DNA of 64,000 nucleotides, from assembly GCF_002218025.2 (NCBI RefSeq), contig NZ_AP018681.1, positions 434,001 through 498,000 on the forward strand. Direction: 5' to 3'. The notes below the pieces were generated by a model, which saw nothing but the letters and a program-made list of their open reading frames with translations, had not been told where the DNA came from and searched no databases. The stretch's first letter is position 1, and each line of letters starts with the position of its first letter. Both the position numbers and the translations under genes were made by a program. Shown piece after piece: positions 31,179 to 45,878 of the stretch. The DNA comes from Vibrio casei (lineage in GTDB: Bacteria; Pseudomonadota; Gammaproteobacteria; Enterobacterales; Vibrionaceae).

Positions 31179-32222
31179 ATGCGTATCGAACAAGAACTTA
31201 AGTTAGGCTTTAAAGATGTATTATTCCGCCCGAAGCGTTCTACATTAAAAAGTCGTTCTCAAGTAAATTTAACCCGCGATTTTACGTTTAAGCATAGCGG
31301 ACGTCAATGGTCTGGTGTACCTGTTATTGCCGCTAATATGGATTCTGTTGGTAGTTTCAATATGGCAAAAGCGTTAGCAGAACATGGTGTAATGACGGCG
31401 ATTCATAAACACTACACCGTTGAAGATTGGAAAGGTTTTATTGAATCAAATGAAGCAAATGTTCTAAACAATGCAATGGTATCGACTGGTACTTCAGAAG
31501 CTGATTTCCAAAAGACCAAAGATATTATGGCAATGAGCGATGATTTGATCTTTATCTGTATCGATATAGCTAATGGCTATTCTGAGCATTTAGTGGATTA
31601 TGTGACTAAAGTGCGTGCAGAATTCCCGGACAAAGTGATCAGTGCTGGTAACGTGGTTACGGGCGATATGGTTGAAGAACTTATCCTAGCGGGTGCCGAT
31701 ATCGTTAAAGTCGGTATTGGTCCAGGTTCAGTGTGTACAACTCGTGTTAAAACTGGTGTCGGTTATCCTCAACTTTCTGCCATTATTGAATGTGCGGATG
31801 CCGCTCACGGTCTAGGTGGCATGATCATCGGTGACGGTGGCTGTACTTGTGCGGGTGACGTATCGAAAGCCTTTGGTGGCGGTGCCGATTTCGTGATGCT
31901 TGGTGGTATGCTAGCTGGTCACGAAGAATCAGGTGGCGAGCGCATTGAACAAGATGGTAAATCATTCATGAAATTCTACGGCATGAGTAGCCAGTCTGCG
32001 ATGAAGAAGCATTCAGGTGGTGTGGCGAAGTATCGTGCGGCGGAAGGGAAAACAGTGCTGATTCCATTTCGTGGAACCGTGCATGAAACCATTAACGATA
32101 TTCTTGGTGGCGTGCGCTCAACCTGTACGTACGTTGGCGCGGCGAAGCTTAAAGAGTTAACCAAACGCACCACGTTCATCCGTGTGCAAGAACAAGAAAA
32201 CAACGTTTACGGACGTGAATAA
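31179..32222 (+). CDS. guaC: GMP reductase
   Basis: 347 residues from ATG 31179 (SD AAAGGAA), the E. coli GuaC length; the longer open frame from 31,026 runs through the hairpin and is not coding. The catalytic loop [20 protein letters not shown] contains the nucleophile Cys. [27 protein letters not shown] is the phosphate-binding site. It reduces GMP to IMP with NADPH. Its last codons contain the protospacer for the CAST private guide (32,163-32,194, PAM CC at 32,161-32,162), and the transposon end begins 24 bp after the stop. The gene itself is intact. Confidence 0.97.
32163..32194 (+). other. Protospacer (attachment target) of the CAST private guide in guaC
   Basis: 32 bp starting exactly on a guaC codon and encoding [10 protein letters not shown]. 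It is preceded by CC, a permitted I-F PAM. It matches the private spacer at 38,595-38,626 in 26 of 32 positions. Its 3' edge is 51 bp from the first transposon base, the expected distance for I-F3 insertion. Confidence 0.9.
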
Positions 32223-32245: not shown

Positions 32246-32314
32246 TGTTGATACAACCATAAATTGATATTTACAACCATATATTGATATTTCGTACAAC
32301 CATAATTTGATATT
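32246..32314 (+). repeat. CAST right end with three TnsB-binding repeats
   Basis: The terminus TGTTGATACAACC is followed by three copies of ACAACCAT-N3-TTGATATT, starting at 32,253, 32,273 and 32,296. The TGTTGATAC start and the ACAACCATA..TTGAT repeat unit match the known ends of guaC-type I-F3 elements. Confidence 0.9.
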
Positions 32315-32371
32315 GCCTCTTCATGGTCTAAGCTTACGTAAGTTTACGACAAAATCGTGAAGAGGCAATAT
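32310..32371 (+). promoter_or_regulatory. 14-bp inverted repeat in the tnsA leader
   Basis: ATATTGCCTCTTCA at 32,310-32,323 is the exact reverse complement of 32,358-32,371, which ends one base before the tnsA ATG. The 34-nt loop contains a second palindrome, CTTACGTAAG (32,332-32,341). In RNA the outer stem would cover the purine-rich AGAGG before tnsA, a possible translational brake. In DNA it could be an operator. Confidence 0.6.
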
Positions 32372-32372
32372 T

Positions 32373-32870
32373 ATGTCTGATCTACTTTCCCCTTCTACAG
32401 CCATCCTGGTTGCACTAGAAAATGCATTTTCTACGCCTGCTCGAAACTTAACTAAGTCACGCGGGAAAAATATACACCGATACGTCAGTGCTAAAATGGG
32501 AAAAAGAGTTACAGTAGAATCTTTTTTAGAATGTGCTGCCTGTTATCATTTTGATTTTGAGTCCAGCATCTTTCGCTTCTGTTCTCAGCCGATAAGATTT
32601 TCATACTGTTTAAATGGTAAGACCCATACCTATGTTCCAGACTTTCTAGTTCAATTTGATACCGGTGAATTTAAGCTGTACGAAGTAAAGTCCGATATGG
32701 AAAGCTCAAAAGACGAATTTCAATGTGAATGGGAGGCAAAAGTACAAAGCGCCTTTGAGTTAGGTTTGGAGCTAGAGCTGGTTACAGAGGGAGAAATACT
32801 GGATGAGGTCATATTTAGCAACCTTAAGCTTTTGCATCGATATGCTTCAAGAGATAACTTGAATCACTTT
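32373..32870 (+). pseudogene. tnsA: tnsA, N-terminal part (interrupted by an IS)
   Basis: 166 codons of the TnsA endonuclease. The frame stays open to a stop at 32,888 inside the inserted IS. Catalytic residues of the restriction-like fold are present: Glu in VESFLECAACYHF, Asp in YVPDFLVQFD and Lys in YEVKSDME. With TnsB, TnsA cuts the 5' strands at the transposon ends, giving cut-and-paste rather than cointegrate products. Removing 32,871-34,514 and one CTTT duplication joins this part in frame to the C-terminal part, giving 229 codons, close to Tn6677 TnsA. The split product lacks the C-terminal domain that contacts TnsC and DNA. Confidence 0.88.
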
Positions 32871-32935
32871 CCCTCTCTGTCAGACTAGTTGTCGCGCTTA
32901 ATATTCAACCATTAAACAGAGGGCGTGGAGTAACA

Positions 32936-33433
32936 ATGAAACATTATTCAGCGCAAAGCAAAGAGTCGGCTCTTCAGAAGATGATGCCTCCAAATAATAT
33001 AGCAATAGCCCAATTATCAATCGAGATGGGGATTGGTGAATCAACCTTGTATAATTGGCGAAAACAAGCAATTGATAAGGGGCATTTAGTGCCAGGTGAT
33101 GGAAAGAATGCTGAGCAGTGGTCATCAGCAAATAAATTCTCAGTCGTGTTGGAAACAGCCTCTTTAAATCAAGCTGAGTTAGCGGAATATTGCCGAGGCA
33201 AAGGTCTTTATGTGGAACAAGTATCGGCTTGGCGAAATGCGTGTATAGATGCAAACGCTAACGTTAAAGAGCAAGAAAAAGCCTTCTCCACCGAAACAAA
33301 GAAAGATAAAAAACAGATCAATCAATTAGAAAAGGAGCTACGTCGAAAAGATAAGGCACTCGCTGAAACCGCAGCACTATTGGTGTTAAGAAAAAAAGCA
33401 AATGCGATCTGGGGGGAAGCCGAGGACGAATGA
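32936..33433 (+). CDS. IS3-like transposase, OrfA (HTH subunit)
   Basis: 165 residues. An N-terminal HTH (IAIAQLSIEMGIGESTLYNWRK) is followed by a second HTH-like stretch (LNQAELAEYCRGKGLYVEQV). A coiled-coil leucine-rich C-terminus reads KKDKKQINQLEKELRRKDKA and ends in LRKKANAIWGEAEDE. It should bind the IS ends. It overlaps orfB by 4 bp, consistent with coupled translation. Confidence 0.85.
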   Translation: MKHYSAQSKESALQKMMPPNNIAIAQLSIEMGIGESTLYNWRKQAIDKGHLVPGDGKNAEQWSSANKFSVVLETASLNQAELAEYCRGKGLYVEQVSAWRNACIDANANVKEQEKAFSTETKKDKKQINQLEKELRRKDKALAETAALLVLRKKANAIWGEAEDE

Positions 33434-34479
33434 TCCTCGACTCAGCTCGCATTCAAGCAGTTAAACTAGTTAATGAAGCTGTGAGTTCTGGTGCGCCAAA
33501 GTTTAAAGCTTGCCGTGAACTTGGGATCAGTGTCCGGACGTATCAACGTTGGACTGTTGACGGGAACATAAAAACAGATGGTAGACCAATATCTCAGCGC
33601 CCTGAGCCAAAAAATAAGCTATCAAAAGCAGAGAGAGATAACATATTAGCCATCGTTAATAGCGATGATTTTAAGAGCTTACCACCAAGCCAAATCGTCC
33701 CTACATTAGCAGATGAGGGTATTTATCTTGCTTCTGAATCAACATATTATCGTGTTCTTCATGAAGAAAAACAGCAAAACGCTCGCGGACGTAGTCAGAT
33801 AAAAGAGAGAAAAGTACCGACGACACACTGTGCTACAGGGCCAAACCAAGTGTGGTGTTGGGATATTACTTGGTTACCAGGCCCCGCTAAAGGGCTGCAT
33901 TTTTATTTATATTTGATACTCGATATATTTAGTCGAAAGATTGTTGGATGGGAAATTCATGATGACGAATCAGCAGAAAATGCATCAATATTAATTAAGA
34001 AAGCTCATTTAAAAGAAGGAGTTAAAGATAATCCTCTGGTACTGCATTCGGATAATGGAAGCCCAATGAAAGGCTCATCAATGCTTGAAACACTTTATAG
34101 TTTAGGTGTCGTGTCGTCTTTTAATCGTCCTAGGGTGAGCAATGATAATGCTTATGCTGAGTCGATATTTAAAACGTGTAAATATCGCCCTGACTATCCG
34201 TATAAAGGGTTTTCAACAATTGATGAGGCGCGTAGTTGGGTGTTGAAATTTAGCCACTGGTATAATTTTAACCACAAACATAGTGGCATCAAATACGTCA
34301 GCCCACATCAAAGGCATTCAGGATTAGCGGGTGACATATTGGCTAATAGAAAAGAAGTTTATCAAGGTGCTAAAGATGCTCACCCTGAGCGCTGGAGCGG
34401 TAATATCCGTAATTGGGATTTACCAAAAGAAGTGTACTTAAACCCTGAACAAAATAGTGTCAAGGCTGAGAGTGCATAA
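33430..34479 (+). CDS. IS3-like transposase, OrfB (DDE integrase domain)
   Basis: 349 residues. HTH-like region at ~20-40 (FKACRELGISVRTYQRW), then an rve/DDE domain. Asp lies in VWCWDITWLPG, Asp in LVLHSDNGSPMKGS and Glu in SNDNAYAESIFKTCKY. The frame is complete and intact, so this copy may be active. It ends 35 bp before the IS terminus. Confidence 0.9.
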   Translation: MILDSARIQAVKLVNEAVSSGAPKFKACRELGISVRTYQRWTVDGNIKTDGRPISQRPEPKNKLSKAERDNILAIVNSDDFKSLPPSQIVPTLADEGIYLASESTYYRVLHEEKQQNARGRSQIKERKVPTTHCATGPNQVWCWDITWLPGPAKGLHFYLYLILDIFSRKIVGWEIHDDESAENASILIKKAHLKEGVKDNPLVLHSDNGSPMKGSSMLETLYSLGVVSSFNRPRVSNDNAYAESIFKTCKYRPDYPYKGFSTIDEARSWVLKFSHWYNFNHKHSGIKYVSPHQRHSGLAGDILANRKEVYQGAKDAHPERWSGNIRNWDLPKEVYLNPEQNSVKAESA

Positions 34480-34514
34480 CGTAGTGATCGCGACAACTAG
34501 TTTGACAAACACCG

Positions 34515-34710
34515 CTTTCATCAAACTCTTCTTACTACCCTCAAATTGAATGGTACCCAAACCGCAAAGAGTTTAGGACACCACCTTGGCTTAAATGAAA
34601 AAAAAATATTACCATTTCTATGTGATCTGCTCTCTCGAAACATACTCCAAACAAGCTTAGAGACGCCTCTATCACTCGAATCTGAATTTGAATTGGGTTG
34701 TTATGCCTAA
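34515..34710 (+). pseudogene. tnsA: tnsA, C-terminal part (separated by an IS)
   Basis: Continues the tnsA frame after the CTTT duplication with HQTLLTTLKLNGTQTAKSLG and DLLSRNILQTSLETPLSLES, ending FELGCYA and TAA at 34,708. This is the winged-helix C-terminal domain of TnsA. It has no start of its own except internal codons. The tnsB ATG (34,703) overlaps its stop by a few bases, as in intact tnsAB. Confidence 0.85.
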
Positions 34711-36517
34711 GAAATCATTTTCGAGTTTTCATCGGAAGTCAGCACTTCAGCAAGAAAAAGTTGAACTGAATGATAGAGGTTTTGATACCAACGTTGATAT
34801 AGAAGAAGCAACATATCAAGATATATCTGCATTTCCTGACAATATAGTCACTCAGATTACTTTTCGTCTAAGTATCCTTCGTTATTTAGCCAGTAAGTGT
34901 GAACAAATCATTCCAAAGACTATCGAACCGCATCGCGTTGCACTACAGCGCTTGCATGACAGGAAGATTCCAAGTGCGATATCAATATACCGTTGGTGGT
35001 TAGTTTTCAGAGCGTCTGATTGTAATCCAGTTAGCTTAGCTCCCAAGAATAAAGATAAAGGTAACAGTAAAGCCAAAGTGCCAACATTCGTTGATGCGTT
35101 AATGGAACAAGCTGTAGAAGGAGTTATCTCTGGGCGAAAAGTGCGAATAAGAAGCGCCTACAAGCGTGTGCGAAGGAAATTACGTCAGCATAATTTGAGC
35201 AATGGTACGAAGTACACATATCCAACTTATGAATCCCTTCGGAAGCGAGTTAATAAGAAAACTCCATTCGAACGATTGGCAGCAAAAAAAGGGGTGCGAG
35301 TTGCGAAAAGAGAATTCCGCCGGATGGGGAAGAAAATATTAACCTCAGCGGTGCTAGAACGAGTGGAAATAGACCATACAGTGGTTGATTTGTTTGCGGT
35401 ACACCCAGTGTATCGAATTGTTGTCGGACGACCTTGGCTTACGCAATTGGTGGATTGTTATAGTAAAGCTGTTGTTGGTTTTTATTTAGGTTTTGAACCT
35501 CCAAGTTATGTATCGGTGTCGCTAGCTCTCAAAAATGCAATACAACGTAAAGATGACTTCTTGTCTTCATACGAATCAGTTGAAAATGAATGGTTGTGTT
35601 ATGGGATCCCTGACTTAATCGTCACTGATAATGGTAAAGAGTTTCTGTCAAAGGCCTTTGATAAAGCATGTGAATCATTGTTGATCAATGTACATCAAAA
35701 CAAAGTCGAAACGCCAGACAACAAACCGCATATTGAACGTAACTACGGCACTATCAATACTTCCTTGTTAGATGATCTTCCAGGGAAAGCTTTCAGTAAG
35801 TACCTTCAAAGAGAAGGTTATGATCCATTGAGAGAAGCCACTCTTACACTAGATGAAATTAAGGAAATTTACTTGATCTGGTTAGTCGATATTTATCATA
35901 CAAAACCTAACCAAAGAGGTACTAATTGTCCGAATGTAGCATGGAGAAGGGGGTGCCAAGAATGGGAACCTGAAGAGTTTACTGGGACTAAAGAAGAGTT
36001 GGACTTCAAATTCGCGATTGTAGACCATAAGCAACTTACTAAAGTTGGAATCACGGTCTATAAAGGCCTCGAATATAGCAGTGTTCGATTAGCTGAATAT
36101 CGGGGTAAAAAAGGCAATCATAAAGTTCAGTTCAAATATAACCCGGAATGTATGGCGGTTATTTGGGTATTGGATCAAGACGAAAATGAATATTTCATCG
36201 TCCCTGCTATTGATTATGAGTACGCAAGCGGAGTTTCACTCTGGCTGCACAAGTATAATATGAAGCATCAAGCAGAATTAAATTCAGCAGATTATGATGA
36301 AGAGAAAGAAATTGATGCAGAGATGAAAATTGAAAAAATTGCTGAACAATCAATTTTTAAGACCAAAAAAACCACAGCTCGGAGACGCGGAGCAAGATAT
36401 CAAGAGAACAGATCTAGGGCAAAAACCATTAGCGAAACAAAGCCTATGCCTGATAAAAAATGTGAAGAAAGTGACGTCATTGTTGATGATGGAGATTGGG
36501 ATATTGATTATGTTTGA
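34703..36517 (+). CDS. tnsB: TnsB DDE transposase of the CAST
   Basis: 604 residues from ATG 34703 (MPKKSFSSFHRKSAL); a TTG five codons earlier is less likely. HTH-containing DNA-binding domains occupy the first ~200 residues. The rve core carries Asp in VEIDHTVVDLF, Asp in LIVTDNGKEF and Glu in KPHIERNYGTIN, so the DDE triad is complete. A Mu-C-like beta barrel and a charged, TnsC-binding tail end the protein. TnsB binds the ACAACCAT repeats at the ends and cuts and joins the 3' strands. With tnsA broken, any movement would be expected to be replicative. The frame is intact. Confidence 0.93.
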   Translation: MPKKSFSSFHRKSALQQEKVELNDRGFDTNVDIEEATYQDISAFPDNIVTQITFRLSILRYLASKCEQIIPKTIEPHRVALQRLHDRKIPSAISIYRWWLVFRASDCNPVSLAPKNKDKGNSKAKVPTFVDALMEQAVEGVISGRKVRIRSAYKRVRRKLRQHNLSNGTKYTYPTYESLRKRVNKKTPFERLAAKKGVRVAKREFRRMGKKILTSAVLERVEIDHTVVDLFAVHPVYRIVVGRPWLTQLVDCYSKAVVGFYLGFEPPSYVSVSLALKNAIQRKDDFLSSYESVENEWLCYGIPDLIVTDNGKEFLSKAFDKACESLLINVHQNKVETPDNKPHIERNYGTINTSLLDDLPGKAFSKYLQREGYDPLREATLTLDEIKEIYLIWLVDIYHTKPNQRGTNCPNVAWRRGCQEWEPEEFTGTKEELDFKFAIVDHKQLTKVGITVYKGLEYSSVRLAEYRGKKGNHKVQFKYNPECMAVIWVLDQDENEYFIVPAIDYEYASGVSLWLHKYNMKHQAELNSADYDEEKEIDAEMKIEKIAEQSIFKTKKTTARRRGARYQENRSRAKTISETKPMPDKKCEESDVIVDDGDWDIDYV

Positions 36518-36528
36518 GGGTTTCTTCG

Positions 36529-37521
36529 GTGAATGACAATCGTGAGGCTCGTCTCTCAATAGCCAAAAAAGCATTTGTGTCGACTCCTAGCGTTACAAAA
36601 ATTTTGTGCTATATGGATAGGTGTAGAGACTTGTCTGACTTGGCCTCTGAGCCCACCTGCATGATGGTTTTTGGCGCTTCGGGAGTTGGTAAAACGACAG
36701 TTATCAGAAAGTATTTAAAAGAAAACAAACGAAAAATTGAAATGCGAGGCGATATAATTCCAGTATTGCATATCGAATTGCCAGATAATGCGAAACCAGT
36801 AGATGTAGCAAGGGAGTTGTTGCTTGAAATGGGGGACCCATTAGCGGTTTATGAGACGGATCTAACTAGGTTGACGAAAAAACTAACAGATTTAATACCT
36901 GCAGTTGGAGTTAGGTTAATCATTATCGATGAGTTTCAGCATTTAGTTGAAGAAAGATCAAGCCGGATTCTCACACAAGTCGGTAACTGGCTAAAAATGT
37001 TACTTAACAAAACTAAGTGTCCCATTGTTCTTTTTGGCATGCCATATTCAAAGCTTGTACTACAAGCAAACTCGCAACTTCATAGTCGATTCTCAATTCA
37101 GTTTGAGCTTCGGCCCTTTAGTTATCAGGGGGGTAAAGGTATATTCAAAACTTTTTTGGAACGCCTAGACAAAGCTTTACCCTTTGACAATGAGGCTGGC
37201 TTAGCTACAGAGAATTTACAGAAAAAATTATATGCCTTTTCTCAAGGTAATATGCGATCGCTGAGAAATCTTATTTACCAAGCATCTGTTGAAGCAGTTG
37301 ATAATAATCACAATACCATTACGGAAGAAGATTTTATTTTTGCTGCAGAGCTAACTAAAGGAGACAAGCCTAGCACGTGGCTAAACCCGTTCGAGAAAGA
37401 TGTAACGGTGACGGAACGTATGCTACGTCCGCCACAAAAAAACATTGGCTGGGAAAATTATTTAGGTAGTCGTGCATCTCAGCCCAAGAAAAATAAAGGG
37501 GATGCAGGCCTCTTTGATTAG
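36529..37521 (+). CDS. tnsC: TnsC AAA+ regulator of the CAST
   Basis: 330 residues from GTG 36529 (SD GAGGG, 8 nt upstream), the length of I-F3 TnsC; a TTG at 36514 overlaps tnsB. Walker A is GASGVGKTTV, Walker B RLIIIDEFQH, followed by sensor region CPIVLFGMPYSKLV and arginine-rich LHSRFSIQFELRPF. TnsC forms ATP-dependent rings on DNA beside the TniQ-Cascade complex and calls in TnsAB. Intact here, although its usual partner TniQ is not found in the window. Confidence 0.93.
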   Translation: MNDNREARLSIAKKAFVSTPSVTKILCYMDRCRDLSDLASEPTCMMVFGASGVGKTTVIRKYLKENKRKIEMRGDIIPVLHIELPDNAKPVDVARELLLEMGDPLAVYETDLTRLTKKLTDLIPAVGVRLIIIDEFQHLVEERSSRILTQVGNWLKMLLNKTKCPIVLFGMPYSKLVLQANSQLHSRFSIQFELRPFSYQGGKGIFKTFLERLDKALPFDNEAGLATENLQKKLYAFSQGNMRSLRNLIYQASVEAVDNNHNTITEEDFIFAAELTKGDKPSTWLNPFEKDVTVTERMLRPPQKNIGWENYLGSRASQPKKNKGDAGLFD

Positions 37522-37547: not shown

Positions 37548-37733
37548 TTAACTTGCCGGAAATCTGCGTAGTTCAAGATTAGTTCGAAATGCATCAAACA
37601 TCTTTTTTGACAAGCTAGCAGCCATGAACGTTTTTCCGGCTCCAGGTGTCGCTTGTGTTAGAAAGAGTTGTTTACCATGTAAGTACTTATTGAGGGCCAG
37701 ATTGATACATTCGCTTTGCCAGTACCTTAGCAT
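37548..37733 (-). pseudogene. Truncated DEAD-like helicase (cargo remnant)
   Basis: 61 codons. LRYWQSECINLALNKYLHGK and LFLTQATPGAGKTFMAASL give the Q-like N-terminus and Walker A of a superfamily 2 helicase/ResIII domain. After ~50 residues the likeness stops (ELRRFPAS then stop), so most of the gene is deleted next to the tnsC 3' end. Its start overlaps the stop of the HTH gene upstream by a few bases, so they formed an operon. Helicases of this type are common in CAST cargo, often as defence genes; which system is unknown. Confidence 0.7.
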
Positions 37734-38272
37734 GTAGCTACCTTATCATTTTGGACAACACTTATTGCGTTACTCCAGACATTTAACTTCGCTAGCAGTA
37801 GAGCTGATCTTCGCGTAGCACGTAAATAGGATGGTTTAAGTAGTTGTGATAACTCGGTTGAACGACTCATTAGCACTTTGTATTCATCTATCTCTGCGAG
37901 CGCAACTGTTAGTTCTGCTTCAATGTCATTTTTTTCTTTCTCGAGTGTTACAACAGTACTTGGATCTCTTTTCATCGGTTGTATCGCTTTGTTGGCTTTG
38001 GATCGTTTGTCTACAAGTTCAAAGTCTGCCTCATGAAATTGCGCTGTTTTAGAGAATACTTTGTTGCGCCCACTTCCTTTACTACTGATAAGTCCCACTT
38101 TCTCAAGGAGATGAAACTGTCTTGATACAAACTGGCGAGCATTATTATTGTTTCCGTACTTGTTTGAGTTCGCTTGAATGCGGTTTCGTACATCGATCAC
38201 ACGGAAGTGATTTAAAGATGGCACAGATAGTGTTTGATAGATGTCACTGTTAATTCGATGCTTTGTATTCAT
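37727..38272 (-). CDS. Winged-helix/coiled-coil cargo protein, function unknown
   Basis: 181 residues. The N-terminal ~85 residues look like a winged helix (LNHFRVIDVRNRIQANSN, then ARQFVSRQFHLLEKVGLISS and a GSGRNKVFSKT wing). A coiled-coil region at ~108-140 (VTLEKEKNDIEAELTVALAE) and a basic C-terminus follow. It overlaps the helicase remnant downstream. A minus-strand promoter with TTGATG and TATAAT 17 bp apart starts at 38,328 and overlaps the Xre-type palindrome at 38,297-38,310, so xre may control it. Confidence 0.6.
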   Translation of the reverse strand: MNTKHRINSDIYQTLSVPSLNHFRVIDVRNRIQANSNKYGNNNNARQFVSRQFHLLEKVGLISSKGSGRNKVFSKTAQFHEADFELVDKRSKANKAIQPMKRDPSTVVTLEKEKNDIEAELTVALAEIDEYKVLMSRSTELSQLLKPSYLRATRRSALLLAKLNVWSNAISVVQNDKVATC

Positions 38273-38363: not shown

Positions 38364-38570
38364 ATGAAAGACTTAGCAAAGCGCTTTGGTGCCAATTTAC
38401 GTGGAAAACGCAGAGATAAAAAGGTTTCTCAAGACCAATTAGCTTTGTTGGCTGATATCGATCGGAGTTATATTGGCAGGATTGAAAGAGGAGAAGTGAA
38501 CATCACACTCGAAAAAGCCTACCAGCTAGCGCAAGTGCTCGAGTGTGATGTTAGAGACCTTCTTCCGTAA
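38364..38570 (+). CDS. xre: Xre-family repressor of the CAST
   Basis: 68 residues, a single HTH_3 domain: FGANLRGKRRDKKVSQDQLA and LLADIDRSYIGRIERGEVNI, ending in DVRDLLP. I-F3 elements commonly carry such a gene beside the arrays, and published work on related elements links it to control of the atypical guide. Palindromes sharing GGATTATAGTCC precede both this gene and the private guide. Its stop codon lies inside the last repeat of the private array, which is transcribed towards it. Confidence 0.88.
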   Translation: MKDLAKRFGANLRGKRRDKKVSQDQLALLADIDRSYIGRIERGEVNITLEKAYQLAQVLECDVRDLLP

Positions 38571-38654
38571 CTATCTGCTTATTCAGCAGTAAGTTGTTCT
38601 TGTACTCGAATAAAAGTGGTTCGTTTGTTATCAACTACTTTTACGGTAGTTGTG
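38567..38654 (-). CRISPR. Private (atypical) one-spacer array with the guaC-targeting guide
   Basis: Transcribed on the minus strand. The atypical repeat at 38,627-38,654 starts CACAACTACCGT and ends GTTGATAAC, diverged from the typical repeat but with a stem-loop. The 32-nt spacer 38,595-38,626 follows, then a diverged terminal repeat 38,567-38,594 whose CTGCT/AGCAG stem is kept and which matches the typical repeat at about 16 of 28 positions. Spacing (28-32-28) is exact for type I-F. The spacer matches guaC 32,163-32,194 at 26 of 32 bases. Mismatches are at spacer positions 6, 12, 15, 18, 21 and 24, all silent third-codon positions. Confidence 0.9.
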
Positions 38655-38686
38655 AGGATTATAGTCCTCTTTATGGGGTAAAACAA
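38655..38686 (-). promoter_or_regulatory. Promoter of the private guide with overlapping Xre-type operator
   Basis: On the minus strand the -35 TTGTTT (38,686-38,681) and a perfect -10 TATAAT (38,663-38,658) are 17 bp apart, so the transcript would start at or in the first atypical repeat. The palindrome AGGATTATAGTCCT (38,655-38,668) covers the -10. It shares 12 bp with the site before xre. Confidence 0.8.
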
Positions 38687-38729: not shown

Positions 38730-38817
38730 AATGCACTCTACCTACTCGGCAGTTCATAAATGGAAAGTTCAGCAGTTCGTTGATGAAAAATTATCAGCTA
38801 CCTACTCGGTAGTTCAC
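38730..38817 (-). CRISPR. Typical I-F3 array: two repeats, one spacer
   Basis: Downstream of cas6f on the minus strand. Repeat 1 (38,790-38,817) starts GTGAACTACCGAGTAGGTAG and ends CTGATAAT, the Vibrio I-F3 type. The 32-nt spacer is 38,758-38,789. Repeat 2 (38,730-38,757) keeps GAACTGCCGAGTAGGTAG but has diverged at its 3' end, as expected for a terminal repeat. No match to the spacer was noticed inside this window. No cas1, cas2 or cas3 is present, as in all I-F3 elements, so new spacers cannot be gained locally. Confidence 0.88.
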
Positions 38818-38947: not shown

Positions 38948-39547
38948 TTAAACCAAAGGGACTGGTTGATATGAATCCACCGCATTAGATAATCCGTAGC
39001 TGCTGAAAATAGAGTCACCTTCTAAACTTTGCTCTGGCTTTATTTGTATATTCAGTCGAAAAGGGCTGTTTTTACTGCGACTGTTAACCTCAAGTGAGTG
39101 ATAGTGGGGAATAATAATTGATTCCCTTTGTTTTATTAGTGCGGCGTTAAACGATTCCCCTCTAGCTATTGCACGCTTTTCAAGGCGTCTTAGTTTTCTT
39201 GTTTGAGCGGCGGTAGTGGATTTGTCGATTGATTGATTACGCACGAATGAAACATATTCGCAACCATCGGGAATTTGAGTCGTTGATGAAATATCGAAAT
39301 AACCGAGCTGTTTCATTTGAGTAAAGTAGTGGTGCTTCAGTAATAAATCGAGCTCAACTCTACTTGTGCTGATAAAAGAGAGCTTCTTTCCCACAGTCTC
39401 TTCACACCACTTAGGAAAAGAGATGCCAATACTTCGGGTATCATACTTGTAATTGAACCCGTGAAGAACTCTTAAACACTTTGCTGCGAGTACTTCATTG
39501 TCACATCGCTCTGGGAGGAAAGTCACGGTCTTATAGTACCAGCGCAT
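38948..39547 (-). CDS. cas6f: Cas6f (Csy4) crRNA-processing endonuclease
   Basis: 199 residues, normal for Csy4. His29 in RVLHGFNYKY sits where the catalytic His of Pseudomonas Csy4 lies. A basic helix AAQTRKLRRLEKRAIARGES matches the arginine-rich helix that grips the repeat stem. It cuts the repeat RNA and stays on the crRNA 3' hairpin as part of Cascade. It follows cas7f by 2 bp. The frame is intact, so the two arrays could still be processed. Confidence 0.9.
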   Translation of the reverse strand: MRWYYKTVTFLPERCDNEVLAAKCLRVLHGFNYKYDTRSIGISFPKWCEETVGKKLSFISTSRVELDLLLKHHYFTQMKQLGYFDISSTTQIPDGCEYVSFVRNQSIDKSTTAAQTRKLRRLEKRAIARGESFNAALIKQRESIIIPHYHSLEVNSRSKNSPFRLNIQIKPEQSLEGDSIFSSYGLSNAVDSYQPVPLV

Positions 39548-39549
39548 AA

Positions 39550-40605
39550 TTAATCTCCCTTATGCTGGAACATGCCACCTTTGATGAGGTTGGCAACTAA
39601 GTAGTGTAAGTCATTCGTAAGTTCTTGGCTCAATTTGTCCGGTGAAGATAATCGCTCGATGAATTGGTCAGAGTTCTGGAGTATGGAAAATAGGTCTTTT
39701 TCTGTTGATGGGTGACGATAGCAAGTTACATCCCCTTTGTGTGCGCCAAATCGACTAATTCGTAATGGTTCAATGGCATTCGGATACCAATCGTCAATTG
39801 TTGCAATGGCAGCGCCCACCTTGTAAATACCAATGATTGGAGAGCGTGCGTTTTCAATCTGAGTGTTCTGAAATATTCGAGCTTTGTTGCCAGACTTTTT
39901 TGAGTCTTTATTTTCTTTTTCAGCGAAAGCTTGGCTTGGATAAATCTCACTATTGGTTGGGAGTGTCAAAGTGGCTTTAACTTCAAATATTGCCAGTCCA
40001 TTTGATTGGCTGAACGCATCAACAACTAACTGGCGGATAGCCCCCCATTGTTGATGAGCTTCAAATGCTGATTTTTCTGTGTAATCGGTACGTATATTTT
40101 CAAATAAAACTGGCTGGTCAGTCCACGGCCAAGGAGTTAGCTCAACGTCATAGCGATATGCTTTTTTGGTATTTTTCCACAACCAAGAGCCGTTACAAAC
40201 GTTGATTAGGTATCTTGACACTAACTCCTGCCAACCGATTCGTTTTTCGTAGAGTTCGATTAACTTAATTAGAGTATTTTTGACATTGCCTGAATTGCAC
40301 TTGTATGGTTTCCGTAACGCTGAAGAGAAAGATACTGAGAAAAAACATTCAATGTAGCTAGCTCCGAAAGGGACGCTACAAAAATCAACAGTATGTGGAT
40401 TGCCATGCGCTAGTTTTTCTGCTGTAGCATTATCTTTAATTTTTCCCGATGACTCATAGGCTAGTGCAGCTGTCTCCATCTGCCCAAGTACGGTGCGAGA
40501 GCTATATCTGAGCGGCTCTTTCGCTCCGTCGGGCCAAACAACAAAAAAGCAAACATCAGAGGGGTTGATGGAACGCTCATAAGCTAAGTTGGTTGGTAGT
40601 TCCAT
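39550..40605 (-). CDS. cas7f: Cas7f (Csy3) Cascade backbone subunit
   Basis: 351 residues, close to the I-F3 Cas7 length. It starts MELPTNLAYERSINPSDVCF, and further Csy3-like stretches are KPYKCNSGNVKNTLIKLIEL and AIATIDDWYPNAIEPLRISRFGA. Six copies coat the crRNA spacer, flipping out every sixth base. It lies 5 bp after the cas8 stub and 2 bp before cas6f. Intact. Confidence 0.92.
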   Translation of the reverse strand: MELPTNLAYERSINPSDVCFFVVWPDGAKEPLRYSSRTVLGQMETAALAYESSGKIKDNATAEKLAHGNPHTVDFCSVPFGASYIECFFSVSFSSALRKPYKCNSGNVKNTLIKLIELYEKRIGWQELVSRYLINVCNGSWLWKNTKKAYRYDVELTPWPWTDQPVLFENIRTDYTEKSAFEAHQQWGAIRQLVVDAFSQSNGLAIFEVKATLTLPTNSEIYPSQAFAEKENKDSKKSGNKARIFQNTQIENARSPIIGIYKVGAAIATIDDWYPNAIEPLRISRFGAHKGDVTCYRHPSTEKDLFSILQNSDQFIERLSSPDKLSQELTNDLHYLVANLIKGGMFQHKGD

Positions 40606-40610
40606 GATGG

Positions 40611-41389
40611 TTATGTCTCCGTTTGCAATACGATATGGTCATGATGATATTGATAACACCATAAAATTTTATTTGGGTCAGTTGTGTTCCCAAAAACTAT
40701 AGGATTGATGAGTCCAATAATAGATTCGGCAAATGCATGTCTATAGTTTCGTAGCGTGTCCTTTTTCTCTACTGGTTGCTCTAGCAGATGATATCCAACG
40801 CAAGAAGGGGTTAACCATTGCCTGTTTTTTACGTTTGTTACCATGTCATCAAAGTTGTTGAGAGGATGCTTATAGAGCGAGAGCCATTTTCCAGTTTGTG
40901 TCGGTACATGTTTAACGGCGGAAGTTAAGTTGTCGAATGACTGAATGTTATGAAAGTCGATAATAGAAATTTTGGCAGCCCCACGAGCGAGACGTTTGGG
41001 CAGAGCTTTGATGATTGAGTCGATGGGCATAGTTGGTTGATGTGTGAATTTCAAGATAAGACTAAATGTGAAATCACACTGCCAATCATCATGTATTGAT
41101 GGGGGAGATATAGTGCCGTTAGTTTTTTCAACAAACTCTTTGGTTAAACCACGTTTATCTAAATGGAACTGATGAATACAGATAGCAAACGACTCAATTT
41201 TCGTTGCTGCGTGTAACTCTCTCAATTTACGTTCAAATGCATGCACATATCCATAGAATGCTGTTAGTGAGGGAATACCGATTGTTACGGAAGAGCTCAA
41301 TGCAGTGGCTCCAGAGACCTTGGTATTGGGTAAAAGCAAAAAGGAACCAGTCTTTGAGCTAGACTCATCAATGGTTGGTTCAAGTAGAG
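40611..41389 (-). pseudogene. cas8f: cas8/5f, C-terminal stub cut by IS66
   Basis: About 259 codons from LLEPTIDESSSKTGSFLLLP to the stop (IVLQTET). I-F3 Cas8/Cas5 fusions are normally ~640 residues, so the N-terminal 60% is missing, including the part expected to read the PAM. The open frame continues into the IS66 end (to 41,543), but that part is IS sequence. The order cas8-cas7-cas6 is the usual I-F3 operon. Without this subunit no functional Cascade is expected unless another copy exists elsewhere. Confidence 0.85.
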
Positions 41390-41468
41390 GTGAGCTTACG
41401 GCAGCATAGCTCAACTTAACTCGCCAGCTCTGGTTTACTAAGTGCTTATCCAATATAAGGAAGGCACC

Positions 41469-41843
41469 ATGCAAAACCAGAAAAACCTGATTCAGGCCAC
41501 TGCTGACTTTGAGCACTGGCGACAAACCCGCATTAATAAACATGCCAGTATCCCCGATGAACTACGCTGCTTAGCACTCAAGCTGCTTGAAGAATATCCG
41601 ATCAGTCACGTGACCAAAGCACTACGGATCTGCACCACCCAGCTCAATGACTGGCGCAAGCAACTTCCCGTTAAGTCGTCCGCTCCTGATTTTGTTCCGT
41701 TACAGATAGAGCCTGATTTACTACCTAAATCAGACCTGAGCCTTCAGCTCACTCTTCCTAATTCAAGTCAGATCTGTATCAGCGGCCTTGTCTCTCCTGA
41801 CTTATTGCGAGCTCTGATACAAGAAGCAGGAGAAGTAAAATGA
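41469..41843 (+). CDS. tnpA: IS66 TnpA (HTH accessory protein)
   Basis: 124 residues from ATG 41469 with SD AAGGAAGG; an in-frame GTG at 41442 is less likely. FEHWRQTRINKHASIPDELR and the HTH-like ISHVTKALRICTTQLNDWRK are typical of IS66 OrfA. The C-terminus ends IQEAGEVK. Its stop overlaps the tnpB start by 4 bp. Confidence 0.88.
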   Translation: MQNQKNLIQATADFEHWRQTRINKHASIPDELRCLALKLLEEYPISHVTKALRICTTQLNDWRKQLPVKSSAPDFVPLQIEPDLLPKSDLSLQLTLPNSSQICISGLVSPDLLRALIQEAGEVK

Positions 41844-42166
41844 TCCACCTGACTGCTGAGAGTAAAATCCTGCTTGCGACTCAACCAGCCGATTTTCGCT
41901 GTGGTATTGATGGACTCGCCGCCCTGTGTCGTCATCAGCTAAAACAGTCGCCTCGTAGCGGAACCCTGTTTGTGTTTACCAACCGCCGTCAAACCATGCT
42001 TAGAGCATTATGTTATGACGGCTCTGGCTTCTGGTTAATCAATAAACGCCTGAGCAAAGGCCGCTTTCAAGATTGGCCCCGTCATCACCAAGATGGGGTG
42101 ACCCCTGTCGCCGCGAAGCAGCTTAAAGCTCTGTTGGTGGGGCTGCCTGGCTGGCAAAAAGTATGA
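41840..42166 (+). CDS. tnpB: IS66 TnpB (Orf2 accessory protein)
   Basis: 108 residues. IHLTAESKILLATQPADFRC, GIDGLAALCRHQL and SGTLFVFTNRRQTMLRAL are the signature of IS66 Orf2 (TnpB). Required for efficient IS66 movement; biochemical role unknown. Translationally coupled to tnpA; tnpC starts 115 bp later. Confidence 0.92.
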   Translation: MIHLTAESKILLATQPADFRCGIDGLAALCRHQLKQSPRSGTLFVFTNRRQTMLRALCYDGSGFWLINKRLSKGRFQDWPRHHQDGVTPVAAKQLKALLVGLPGWQKV

Positions 42167-42281
42167 CCGTACGCACACTATTCCCCCTTAAGTTATCGAT
42201 CCTCACGATCATGTTGACTGATCCCACAATGCTGGAATAATTGAGCGCATCAGCACTGCAAGCCAGCCGACAGGAACTTAA

Positions 42282-43880
42282 ATGGCGCAAGACTTTACCG
42301 ATATTGACAGCGAAGAGCTGGACGGGCTTATCCAGCGAGTGCACGAGGCAAAGGAGCACGACTTAGCACTGAGTGCGGAAGATTGCCACATCTTGTTGAA
42401 GGCATTAAAGACGCTGGCTGCCTTGCAAGAGCGTCTGTCTGATAACGATATCACCCTGCATAAATTGCGTAAGTTGGTTGGCATGGTCAAGTCATCAGAA
42501 ACGATGGACACTCTACTCGGCCAGAAAAATAAGAAAAACAAAAACCGCGGTCAAAAACGTCCTAAGCCTAAAAATACCCAACCCAGCACACCACCAGTGA
42601 AACCGAAAGTCACTCAGCATAAACTGGACGATCTAAAGAAAGGCGATAGTTGCCCCGAGTGTCAAAAAGGCAAGTTATATAAATACGAGCCCGCTACGCT
42701 GTTGCGGATCACTGGGCAAAGTCCGTTCGTCCCAGAGCAACACGTTATGGAGCGGCTACGTTGCAATGCCTGTGGTCAGTACTTCACTGCCAAGTTACCT
42801 AATGACGTGATAAATGATGGAGAGCCAAGCCAGAAGTATGGTTACAGTGCCCGCAGCCTGATGGCTCTTCACAAGTTTTTTGCAGGTGCACCCTACTATC
42901 GTCAGGAGAGTACGCAAGCGCTGATGGGGATTAAACTGACCGCCTCAACCATCTTTGACCAAGTCGAGTTAGTCGCCAATAGCTTGCAACCCATTTATAA
43001 CTTGTTAAGAGTGTTTGCCGCAAACGCAGAGCACTATTATTTAGATGACACGACCAACCGAATTTTAGACAAAGTCCCGATAGAAAAGCCGCAGAGAAAT
43101 GGAACAAAAACCCGAGAGCGCAGTGGTGTTTACAGCTCCGGTTTAGTCGCGGGCTTAAAAGAGGGTCGTACTGTCGTGTTGTATCAGACCAATATCGGTC
43201 ATGCCGGCGAGTTCATCGACGAGATTTTACATGACCGTGGCCGGACACTCGCGCCCCCGATATTGATGAGTGATGCCTTATCCAGCAACCGCCCATCGCT
43301 TGATTACGTGGTCGAACACAGTCTGTGCAACAGTCACGGACGACGGCAGTTTGCCGAAGTCCTTAATCAGTTTCCAGATGAAGTGGAGCAAGTACTACAG
43401 TGGTATGGTGAAATCTGGCGACACGATGATGAAGCCAGGGAGCTAGGACTTAACGCGGGGCAACGGTTAGCTTGGCATAAAAAGCTATCACTTCCGGTAA
43501 TGGAGCAGATCCGAAACTGGGGTCAGGCCGAGCTGAACAGGGGAAGTACAGAAGAAAACAGCGGGCTTGGTAAAGCAATTAATTATTTTACTAAGCATTA
43601 TGAGGGGCTGACCGCCTTCTGCCGTCTCGAGGGAGCACAGCTGGATAATAACCGAGCGGAGCAAGCACTCAAGCTAGTTGCTCGCAACCGAAAAAATGCC
43701 CTGTTCCATAAAACACAGGCTGGTGCGAGCATTGCGGATGTGATCATGGCGATGATAGCGACATCAGCCGAAGCGGGTATAAATGTGCTGGATTACTTTA
43801 ATACGATACAGCGAATGGAAAGTGAAGTTAAGGCTAATCCACAACAGTTCTTGCCCTGGAATTATCAGTCCAATATCTAA
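42282..43880 (+). CDS. tnpC: IS66 TnpC transposase (DDE)
   Basis: 532 residues. An N-terminal leucine-rich region is followed by basic linker KNKNRGQKRPKPKNTQPSTP and the IS66 zinc finger (CPECQKG and CNACGQYF). The DDE core has Asp in YYLDDTTNRIL, Asp in PILMSDALSSN and Glu in LDNNRAEQALKLVARNRKN. A C-terminal IS66_C region ends QQFLPWNYQ. The frame is intact. Confidence 0.93.
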   Translation: MAQDFTDIDSEELDGLIQRVHEAKEHDLALSAEDCHILLKALKTLAALQERLSDNDITLHKLRKLVGMVKSSETMDTLLGQKNKKNKNRGQKRPKPKNTQPSTPPVKPKVTQHKLDDLKKGDSCPECQKGKLYKYEPATLLRITGQSPFVPEQHVMERLRCNACGQYFTAKLPNDVINDGEPSQKYGYSARSLMALHKFFAGAPYYRQESTQALMGIKLTASTIFDQVELVANSLQPIYNLLRVFAANAEHYYLDDTTNRILDKVPIEKPQRNGTKTRERSGVYSSGLVAGLKEGRTVVLYQTNIGHAGEFIDEILHDRGRTLAPPILMSDALSSNRPSLDYVVEHSLCNSHGRRQFAEVLNQFPDEVEQVLQWYGEIWRHDDEARELGLNAGQRLAWHKKLSLPVMEQIRNWGQAELNRGSTEENSGLGKAINYFTKHYEGLTAFCRLEGAQLDNNRAEQALKLVARNRKNALFHKTQAGASIADVIMAMIATSAEAGINVLDYFNTIQRMESEVKANPQQFLPWNYQSNI

Positions 43881-44607: not shown

Positions 44608-45825
44608 TTAGTGATTTTTATTCGCTTCCATTATAAATCCACTCCACCAGCTCATAATTTCTTTCCTTTGTTCAAAAAAGTCAGAGCGGTTGTAGCTCGC
44701 TCTTGTCGTATTCTTGTCCATGTGCGATAGGCAAGCTTCAATATGCAGAGTGTCAAAGCCTTGTTCGTGTAGGGCGGTTGATGCAATAGCTCTTAAACCA
44801 TGTGCAACGAGTTCATCTTTAAACCCTAAGCTGCGTTTTAAAGCAGCATTGGCTGTGTAGATGCTTATATGACTCTGTGGGTTACGTTCACCAGGGAAGA
44901 CGAATTCTTTAGCGTCACTTTGAATTCTGATTCGTTCAAGAACACTAATTGCTTGCGTGGGGAGAGGGACTCTGTGTTCACGCCTCCGCTTCATTTCCTC
45001 TGCAGGTATGGTCCAGCATCGCTTTTTCAAATCTATGTCTTTCCAGCGTGTTCTTGCCGCTTCTTTTGGACGTGCGATAGTGTGCAACTGCCAAAGTAGA
45101 AGTAGTTTGGTTTTATCTTGGATGTTTTCATTTTTTTCCAAACGAGATAAAAATTCTCCTAATAGTTCAGGACGAATGGTAGGCATGTTTTCAACTTGAT
45201 GTTTCTCAAATGAATTGATCATTTTTGTAAGTGGGTTAGCGGTGATAACATCGCTTGCGACAGCGTATTCCATGATTTGGTTTAGGCTTTGGCAAATTCT
45301 TTTAATCGTTGAGAGTTTACCATCGCTTTCAAGTGGCCGTAGCGTCTGAATGGCATCACGCCGAGTGATCTCACTTATGGGGAGTGAGCCTAAATGGTCG
45401 AATACGTATTTTTCCAAAGTTCTCCAGGTTCGTTCTGCATGAAACGGACTAATGGACTTACGCTTTCTGTCAAACCAATTCGTTGCAACAGCGAGAAAAT
45501 TATCGTTGTGCTTACGTAGATATTCAATTTTCTTATCTTCTTTGAGGCGCTTAGGATCTAAACCTAATGCAATTTGTTTGCGATATTCTGCTCCTTCTAA
45601 TTTGGCGGCAGCCAGTCCTAGAGAAGGATAGGTTCCCATTGAAATTTTGGTTACTTTTCGCGTTACAGGGTGACGATATTTGAATTGCCAGGCTTTTGTT
45701 CCTTTTCCGGAACTGGAGCGTTTAGGGCGAATACGAAGCTGTAAGCCCTCTTCAACAGTGTAGGTATATTCCTTGTCCTTGATAACGAGTGCTTTGATTG
45801 ATGTATCTGTAATCCGTTTAGCCAT
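44608..45825 (-). CDS. int: P4-type tyrosine recombinase (integrase)
   Basis: 405 residues from ATG 45825 (MAKRITDTSIKALVIKDKEY); the frame is open 15 codons further upstream. An N-terminal DUF4102 domain is followed by a core-binding SAM-like domain. The catalytic domain has Arg in ARPKEAARTRW, HGLR in LVAHGLRAIASTALHEQG, His in ACLSHMDK and Tyr in RASYNRSDF. Such integrases insert genomic islands next to tRNA or other genes. Two GTGGGGTACC direct repeats lie just upstream (~45,880-45,900), typical of the promoter/accessory region of this class. No attachment pair was identified. Confidence 0.92.
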   Translation of the reverse strand: MAKRITDTSIKALVIKDKEYTYTVEEGLQLRIRPKRSSSGKGTKAWQFKYRHPVTRKVTKISMGTYPSLGLAAAKLEGAEYRKQIALGLDPKRLKEDKKIEYLRKHNDNFLAVATNWFDRKRKSISPFHAERTWRTLEKYVFDHLGSLPISEITRRDAIQTLRPLESDGKLSTIKRICQSLNQIMEYAVASDVITANPLTKMINSFEKHQVENMPTIRPELLGEFLSRLEKNENIQDKTKLLLLWQLHTIARPKEAARTRWKDIDLKKRCWTIPAEEMKRRREHRVPLPTQAISVLERIRIQSDAKEFVFPGERNPQSHISIYTANAALKRSLGFKDELVAHGLRAIASTALHEQGFDTLHIEACLSHMDKNTTRASYNRSDFFEQRKEIMSWWSGFIMEANKNH

Positions 45826-45878
45826 AATCATAATCACATAGATGAGCGAGTAGAGACCATTGTATAGCAATATAATCT

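Follow-up and report, generated by a model that had tools for sequence, protein, structure and literature searches.

How does a mobile element that finds its insertion site with an RNA guide recognize one gene in host after host, when the wobble bases of that gene differ between hosts? The question is raised by a 64-kb stretch of Vibrio casei DNA, here called the window. In it a 32-nucleotide spacer, flanked by atypical repeats and accompanied by tns and cas genes, resembles part of the nearby guaC gene, and every difference between the two is silent. Very probably the spacer is the private guide of a Tn7-like, CRISPR-associated transposon of I-F3a-like type, whose homing site is the 3' end of guaC.

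The kind of phenomenon is already known: published work describes tolerance of mismatches at I-F3 attachment (att) sites as well as variation of their wobble bases (PMC11406308). According to a passage in that review, PAM ambiguity and mismatch tolerance together allow att sites to be recognized across hosts despite wobble variation, and also help to keep I-F3 crRNAs private from I-F1 systems. The sections of PMC12774636 on the I-F3a element of V. parahaemolyticus (VpCAST) report that every sixth base of the guide is flipped out and that mismatches in positions 13-17 and 19-23 have minimal effect. Mismatching positions 7-11 causes severe impairment, and activity is lost when the first six bases or positions 25-29 are fully mismatched. 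Insertion occurs mainly 49 bp downstream. A guaC/IMPDH attachment site with a near-identical right end has been described in Vibrio strains, in the part of PMC6360697 that concerns it.

Here we report a comparison of natural guides with the guaC genes of their hosts. The element in the window is itself ordinary and broken; what we add to the known kind is that a family of guides evolves in the codon register of its target. Petassi et al. 2020 reportedly give an account of I-F3 mismatch tolerance. The passages of the literature searched, which did not cover that account, the likeliest place, held no per-position comparison of guide and att gene.

Results

A one-ended remnant beside guaC

The attachment-site gene, guaC (GMP reductase), occupies positions 31179-32222 on the plus strand; the open reading frame 31026-32222 matches Pfam IMPDH (E=1.1e-77), and an ATG stands at 31179. 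Near its 3' end are a PAM (CC, 32161-32162) and the protospacer (32163-32194, plus strand). The right end of the transposon (32246-32312, plus strand) consists of TGTTGATACAACCATAAATTGATA and two degenerate copies with 5-6 mismatches in 24, the three starting at 32246, 32266 and 32289. The terminal sequence, TGTTGATACAACC, begins at 32246, after 51 bases from the protospacer.

The Tn7-like genes tnsA, tnsB and tnsC follow on the plus strand. tnsA (32361-34707; tblastn and Pfam TnsA N-domain) is split into 32361-32867 and 34504-34707 by an insertion sequence. In tblastn two relatives each match it in two pieces, and the start of the second piece varies with the relative used (34504 or 34483). 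The transposase reading frames inside it (32936-34479, plus strand) carry Pfam HTH_Tnp_1, rve and rve_3 domains, from which we take them to be IS3-type. tnsB (34688-36517; Pfam rve and Mu-transpos_C) shares about 80% identity, and tnsC (36514-37521; Pfam TniB/AAA) 77-82%, with their counterparts in two relatives. Next comes a cargo reading frame with no assigned family (37727-38272, minus strand). After this frame a relative carries a helicase/ResIII-type gene; the window matches no more of it than residues 3-49.

An xre-type regulator (38364-38570, plus strand; Pfam HTH_3, E=1.4e-13) adjoins the guide cassette, which lies on the minus strand: 5' atypical repeat CTACCGTAAAAGTAGTTGATAAC (38627-38649), spacer (38595-38626) and 3' atypical repeat (38571-38594). 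Directly upstream of the guide is a palindrome, GAGGATTATAGTCCTC (38654-38669), a putative Xre operator. The 94-nucleotide stretch around the guide folds better than its shuffles (z -3.5). In the predicted fold, however, the 5' repeat is paired with the spacer and does not form its own hairpin, and this we count against our preferred explanation.

Beyond the cassette lies a typical CRISPR array (38730-38817, minus strand) of two repeats and one spacer (38758-38789). cas6 (38948-39547; Pfam Cas_Csy4, E=8e-29) and cas7 (39550-40605; Pfam Cas_Csy3, E=9.5e-71), both on the minus strand, are whole. cas8/5 (40611-41399, minus strand; Pfam Cas_Csy2) is reduced to its C-terminal 261 residues, matching only residues 372-632 of 633-residue relatives, and stops at an IS66-type insertion with reading frames at 41442-43880 (plus strand; NCBIfam IS66 TnpB and transposase). 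Beyond the IS66-type frames, neither the N-terminal part of cas8 nor tniQ nor a left end was found. The TniQ of a relative (Pfam TniQ, E=3.2e-19) has no match in the whole window (best E=0.21), and the frame that follows tniQ in that relative reaches only E=0.19. Between 31 and 60 kb the best candidate for a left end has 8 mismatches in 24; the right end alone was found, where such elements have two ends with a 5-bp target duplication. Neither cas1 nor cas2-3 is among the family matches of the reading frames scanned, the genome itself has no I-F1 cas3, and no RNA family reached its gathering threshold in 32-46 kb.

Several traits by which I-F3(a) elements are assigned are in place: tnsA, tnsB and tnsC, the first split by the insertion sequence; a private guide between atypical repeats that matches the att gene; and an insertion distance of 51 bp with a CC PAM, where about 47-51 bp and C at PAM position -2 are expected. 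A further trait, tniQ next to the cas genes, has gone together with the N-terminal part of cas8, so we read this copy as a remnant of an I-F3(a) member and not as a whole one. The element thus belongs with the type I-F3a-like CRISPR-associated transposons and occupies their known site at guaC; it survives as a one-ended remnant, and with the parts it retains it should no longer be able to move.

A tyrosine recombinase gene (44608-45870) is found just past the broken end, and the truncation of the transposon may be due in part to a second mobile element. The single typical spacer (38758-38789, minus strand) matches V. gangliei plasmid pVgang (NZ_AP021871.1) at 28 of 32 bases, with mismatches at 9, 12, 15 and 20 and a CT PAM. 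This is in line with the division of labor between typical and private guides described in the relevant part of PMC12774636.

The guide and guaC share a codon register

A preliminary description of this DNA had aligned the spacer with guaC, and on realignment we obtained the same picture: 26 of 32 bases identical without gaps, a CC PAM, and both sequences in codon phase 0. The six mismatches, at spacer positions 6, 12, 15, 18, 21 and 24, all fall on third codon bases, and the same 10 residues are encoded by both. Six random mismatches would all land on the ten third positions with P=2.3e-4. Apart from the spacer itself and guaC, no site in the window has 11 or fewer mismatches to the spacer.

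That the resemblance arose by chance, or that the spacer is a dead piece of guaC and no guide, is very improbable: the element has decayed, and this copy need not be active, but none of 2000 shuffled spacers reached 6 mismatches when compared with the window minus the spacer region (the best, once, had 7), first and second codon positions are preserved in non-coding sequence, and in 19 genomes the spacer has similar atypical repeats on both sides and a conserved palindrome above it.

Would the mismatches matter? The flipped positions are 6, 12, 18, 24 and 30, so four of the six are flipped; 15 and 21 are not. All six lie at flipped bases or within segments 13-17 and 19-23, which the published map (PMC12774636) gives as having minimal effect. 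Mismatches so confined occur in only 6 of 103 guaC sequences compared with this guide, the window's own included, and in none of the 15 other guide-target pairs described below. With all of its mismatches in tolerated places, this guide is likely to have homed to this guaC.

A family of guides in related elements

Cas7 of the window's type occurs in 24 of 329 genomes of the family, and 19 of the 24, including the window's genome, carry the same guide family. All 19 guides are flanked by similar atypical repeats and stand below the conserved palindrome, which shows small differences. The other five (G272, G118, G124, G220 and G167) had no guide within 10 mismatches in the stretch fetched, which for G220 stopped early at a contig end. 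Three Cas7 matches outside the family (G396, G375 and G387) had no guaC-type guide. In plasmid records only distant Cas7 relatives were found (less than 60% identity, in 36 records), and among viral contigs none of 22 pattern matches to Cas7 was confirmed as a relative. For other coding att sites (yciA, rsmJ), local comparison did not find targets of atypical or array spacers.

Sixteen guides could be paired with guaC of the same genome, leaving out three (G114, G127 and G013) that had no fetched guaC; in two pairs (G075 and G130) the guide is on one contig of the genome and guaC on another. For comparison we used 103 guaC protospacers, 108 less 5 duplicate loci. Their 75 distinct sequences are an uneven sample: of 301 genomes that gave a guaC match they represent a part, mostly those ranking highest in similarity to the window's guaC. 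One of the 103 (L089) looks degenerate.

The preliminary description held that the guide explains the insertion site and placed the inserted end 51 bp past the protospacer, the distance at which we find it. The PAM, the spacing and the presence of the same guide family in 18 other genomes, the private spacers with which comparison had been proposed, uphold that explanation. The gap between protospacer and transposon end is 47-51 bp in 15 of the 16 pairs and 67 bp in the other, and PAM position -2 is C in all 16 (CT in 9, CC in 5, CA in 2).

Guides mismatch their own hosts at third codon positions

Every one of the 16 guides mismatches guaC of its own genome, at 5-10 positions. These mismatches fall at 111 of 160 third positions and at 11 of 352 first and second positions; in 7 pairs, the window's among them, only third positions are affected. 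Because 19 genomes share the guide family and the mismatches in the 16 pairs fall mainly on third positions, we take the guide to be inherited and matched at the level of codons. It matches guaC at the first two bases of codons and holds little information about the silent bases of its host.

The preliminary description had noted that positions 6, 12, 18 and 24 are bases that Cascade flips out of pairing. This accounts for four of the six mismatches in the window and fits the guide family less well. Flipped wobble bases are mismatched at 63 of 80 places and other wobble bases at 48 of 80. Positions 3, 6, 9, 12, 18, 21 and 24 are mismatched in most pairs; of these, 3, 9 and 21 are unflipped, and each is mismatched in 14 of 16. 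Flipping-out explains only part of the tolerance. The 15 pairs other than the window's each have 1-4 mismatches in stretches (3, 9, 25-29) that were mapped as sensitive when whole segments were mismatched. Either single mismatches are tolerated there, then, or those guides are weakened.

Do guides follow the hosts in which they reside? Mean distances were 4.54 between guides, 5.16 between guaC sequences and 7.59 between guides and guaC (15 distinct guides, 75 distinct guaC). A guide is 7.63 from its own guaC and 7.86 when partners are permuted among element hosts. Host tracking leans the expected way and is not significant (permutation P=0.10).

Nor do guides appear to be optimized for the largest number of hosts. 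Their wobble bases lie 6.2-7.65 from guaC, random synonymous encodings of the same peptide average 6.56, and guaC genes score 4.97 by the same measure. By plain identity, a fraction of 0.08-0.67 of random encodings are as far from guaC as the guides or farther. The wobble bases of the guides look like random synonymous choices. By identity, the guides likewise do not stand out as anti-matching sequences.

Guides are inherited and change in register

Across 11 representatives, identity is 75-97% for the guides and 45-77% for sequence lying farther upstream. Because the guides are the more alike, we consider them conserved by selection and inherited. On the Cas7 tree the fewest guide changes are 18 at the five flipped sites (3.6 per site), 7 at the five other wobble sites and 10 at the 22 remaining sites, while aligned upstream columns average 4.1. 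The excess of changes at wobble sites is clear (P=0.0009, site shuffling); faster change at flipped than at other wobble sites is only suggestive (P=0.07). Three guide bases seen in none of the 75 guaC sequences, T at 30 (6 of 15 guides), A at 18 (2) and G at 6 (2), are all at flipped positions. Seven more guaC-absent bases, each in 1-2 guides, are at unflipped positions between 19 and 29.

Guide and Cas7 seem not always to have traveled together. In G286, G311 and G005 the element's Cas7 is almost that of G017, yet guide and repeats differ, and guide cassettes seem, from such cases, to have been exchanged between some elements. The tree of guides therefore need not equal that of Cas7. Locus L032 differs in guide and atypical repeats from L033, L034 and L035, with near-identical Cas7.

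No donor lineage found among the guaC genes searched

If the spacer was instead acquired from guaC of a different bacterial lineage, as the preliminary description proposed, that lineage should match at 32 of 32. The nearest approach is a 2.6-Mb genome of the family (G081), whose guaC matches the window guide at 29 of 32 and the guide of the G215 element at 31 of 32, the sole mismatch being at flipped position 12. Across the 329 family genomes, however, a guaC identical to the window guide at 32 of 32 was not found. Within 3 mismatches these genomes contain 11 places: 8 element guides, the window's included, and 3 guaC or guaC-like coding sequences, all at 3 mismatches (two in G081, one in G089). 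Among 138 genomes of the order nothing but the element itself came within 3.

Are these near matches more than codon usage would give? Two simple models predict that 5-7% of guaC sequences fall within 3 mismatches of the window guide and 0.2-0.4% within 1 mismatch of any guide. The near matches do not exceed this expectation, so they do not point to a donor lineage. With wobble bases in the range of random synonymous choices and no significant host tracking, acquisition from another lineage's guaC is unlikely.

Privacy as a selected trait

The mismatches might also be selected: a canonical I-F1 Cascade would use the host gene poorly as a target, so that the guide stays private and self-targeting is avoided. 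The idea of privacy has been published (PMC11406308 and PMC12774636, in the passages concerned). In our data it is favored by positions 3 (A) and 9 (C), which are invariant in all 19 guides although mismatched with the host's own guaC in 14 of 16 pairs. Moreover, when rU-dG and rG-dT are counted as paired, all 15 distinct guides have more unpaired bases (5.05-7.45) than the random mean (4.61), and 8 of 15 exceed the 95th percentile (6.16).

Each of these points has a counterpart. It is guides with first- or second-position changes, which that comparison counts, that make up the 8 above the percentile, and by plain identity the distance from guaC is no greater for guides than for random synonymous encodings. 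Two unchanging sites among ten wobble sites averaging 2.5 changes are not rare, by an estimate from tree counts, and we judge the invariance of 3 and 9 not yet significant; the window's own guaC agrees with the guide at both. An I-F1-type cas3 was found in only 4 of the 19 host genomes, and the need to stay private from a resident I-F1 system is therefore unlikely to explain everything. We regard selection for privacy as a doubtful explanation of the mismatches.

A bolder combination can be drawn from the same data: an old, vertically kept guide that addresses a stretch of protein instead of DNA and, without encoding the gene, changes in that gene's codon register. Its flipped bases would be nearly free to change, and positions 3 and 9 would be fixed by selection as a lock that keeps canonical I-F1 systems from turning the guide on the chromosome. 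As a joint claim we think it improbable.

Discussion

The reading we prefer is that of an inherited homing guide matched to guaC codon by codon. In the intact element, a crRNA with a 32-nucleotide guide would have been released by Cas6. Loaded into TniQ-Cascade (Cas8/5, Cas7, Cas6 and TniQ), this crRNA would bind guaC beside a CN PAM, and TnsABC would insert the element some 50 bp downstream, with its right end nearest guaC and guaC left intact. The guide would depend on bases common to guaC genes, chiefly at codon positions 1 and 2. Wobble bases, which differ between hosts, would go largely unread, every sixth base being flipped out or single mismatches elsewhere being tolerated. The guide would be passed down with the element, not recopied from each host. 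The match with its PAM and spacing, the guide family and its change in codon register, and the damage to this copy are seen directly in the sequences; expression of the guide, the activity of TniQ-Cascade on the guaC target and the order of events are what we infer. The claim in the preliminary description that the guide tolerates silent variation fits published I-F3 behavior, as given in parts of PMC11406308 and PMC12774636.

How does the element compare with known systems? In the part of PMC6360697 that describes them, the I-F3a elements of V. cholerae HE-45 and V. parahaemolyticus ISF-25-6 sit 3' of guaC, as here, with mini I-F cas genes and with tns genes at the right end. Their right end, TGTTGA(A/T)ACAACCATAAA(A/T)TGATA, is nearly the same as that in the window. 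Unlike them, the window copy is one-ended, with tnsA split by an insertion sequence, cas8 truncated, and neither tniQ nor a left end found. VpCAST likewise has a homing guide between atypical repeats and a CN PAM, and PMC12774636 calls mismatches between private guides and att sites common. It inserts mainly 49 bp downstream, compared with 51 bp in the window, and its att gene is yciA instead of guaC; VpCAST was shown to work. The passage in PMC11406308 contains the idea alone; the per-position counts, the inheritance test and the comparison with random encodings come from the present analysis.

Homing endonucleases tolerate silent variation in the host gene. Like the guaC guide, they are recognizers carried by mobile elements, tuned to conserved coding sequence and tolerant of wobble changes; theirs is a protein-DNA recognition, whereas the guaC element uses an RNA guide.

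The 16 natural pairs indicate that I-F3 homing guides are inherited and matched at the codon level and are not copies of the host att gene. They also constitute a natural map of mismatch tolerance to set beside the laboratory maps, one that bears on predicting the host range and off-targets of I-F3 tools.

Other observations at guaC loci

The window's genome also encodes a second, divergent type I-F Cas7 (contig 1, 1085720-1086730; L037, L150), 29% identical to the first and accompanied by a short CRISPR array. In the 2.6-Mb genome G081, a second and degenerate-looking guaC copy (L089) is present in addition to the one in L090. Tn7-like ends occur 45-52 bp past the guaC protospacer at 12 loci in genomes without a strong match (E<=1e-60) to this Cas7 type: L074, L086, L087, L103, L105, L123, L130, L134, L137, L143, L147 and L148. 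Four genomes of one genus in the family (G143, G131, G121 and G109; L124-L127, L129-L131) have two guaC copies about 5-12 kb apart, one of which, in G121 at least, has a Tn7-like end after it. Elements in these genomes possibly bring guaC with them or duplicate it.
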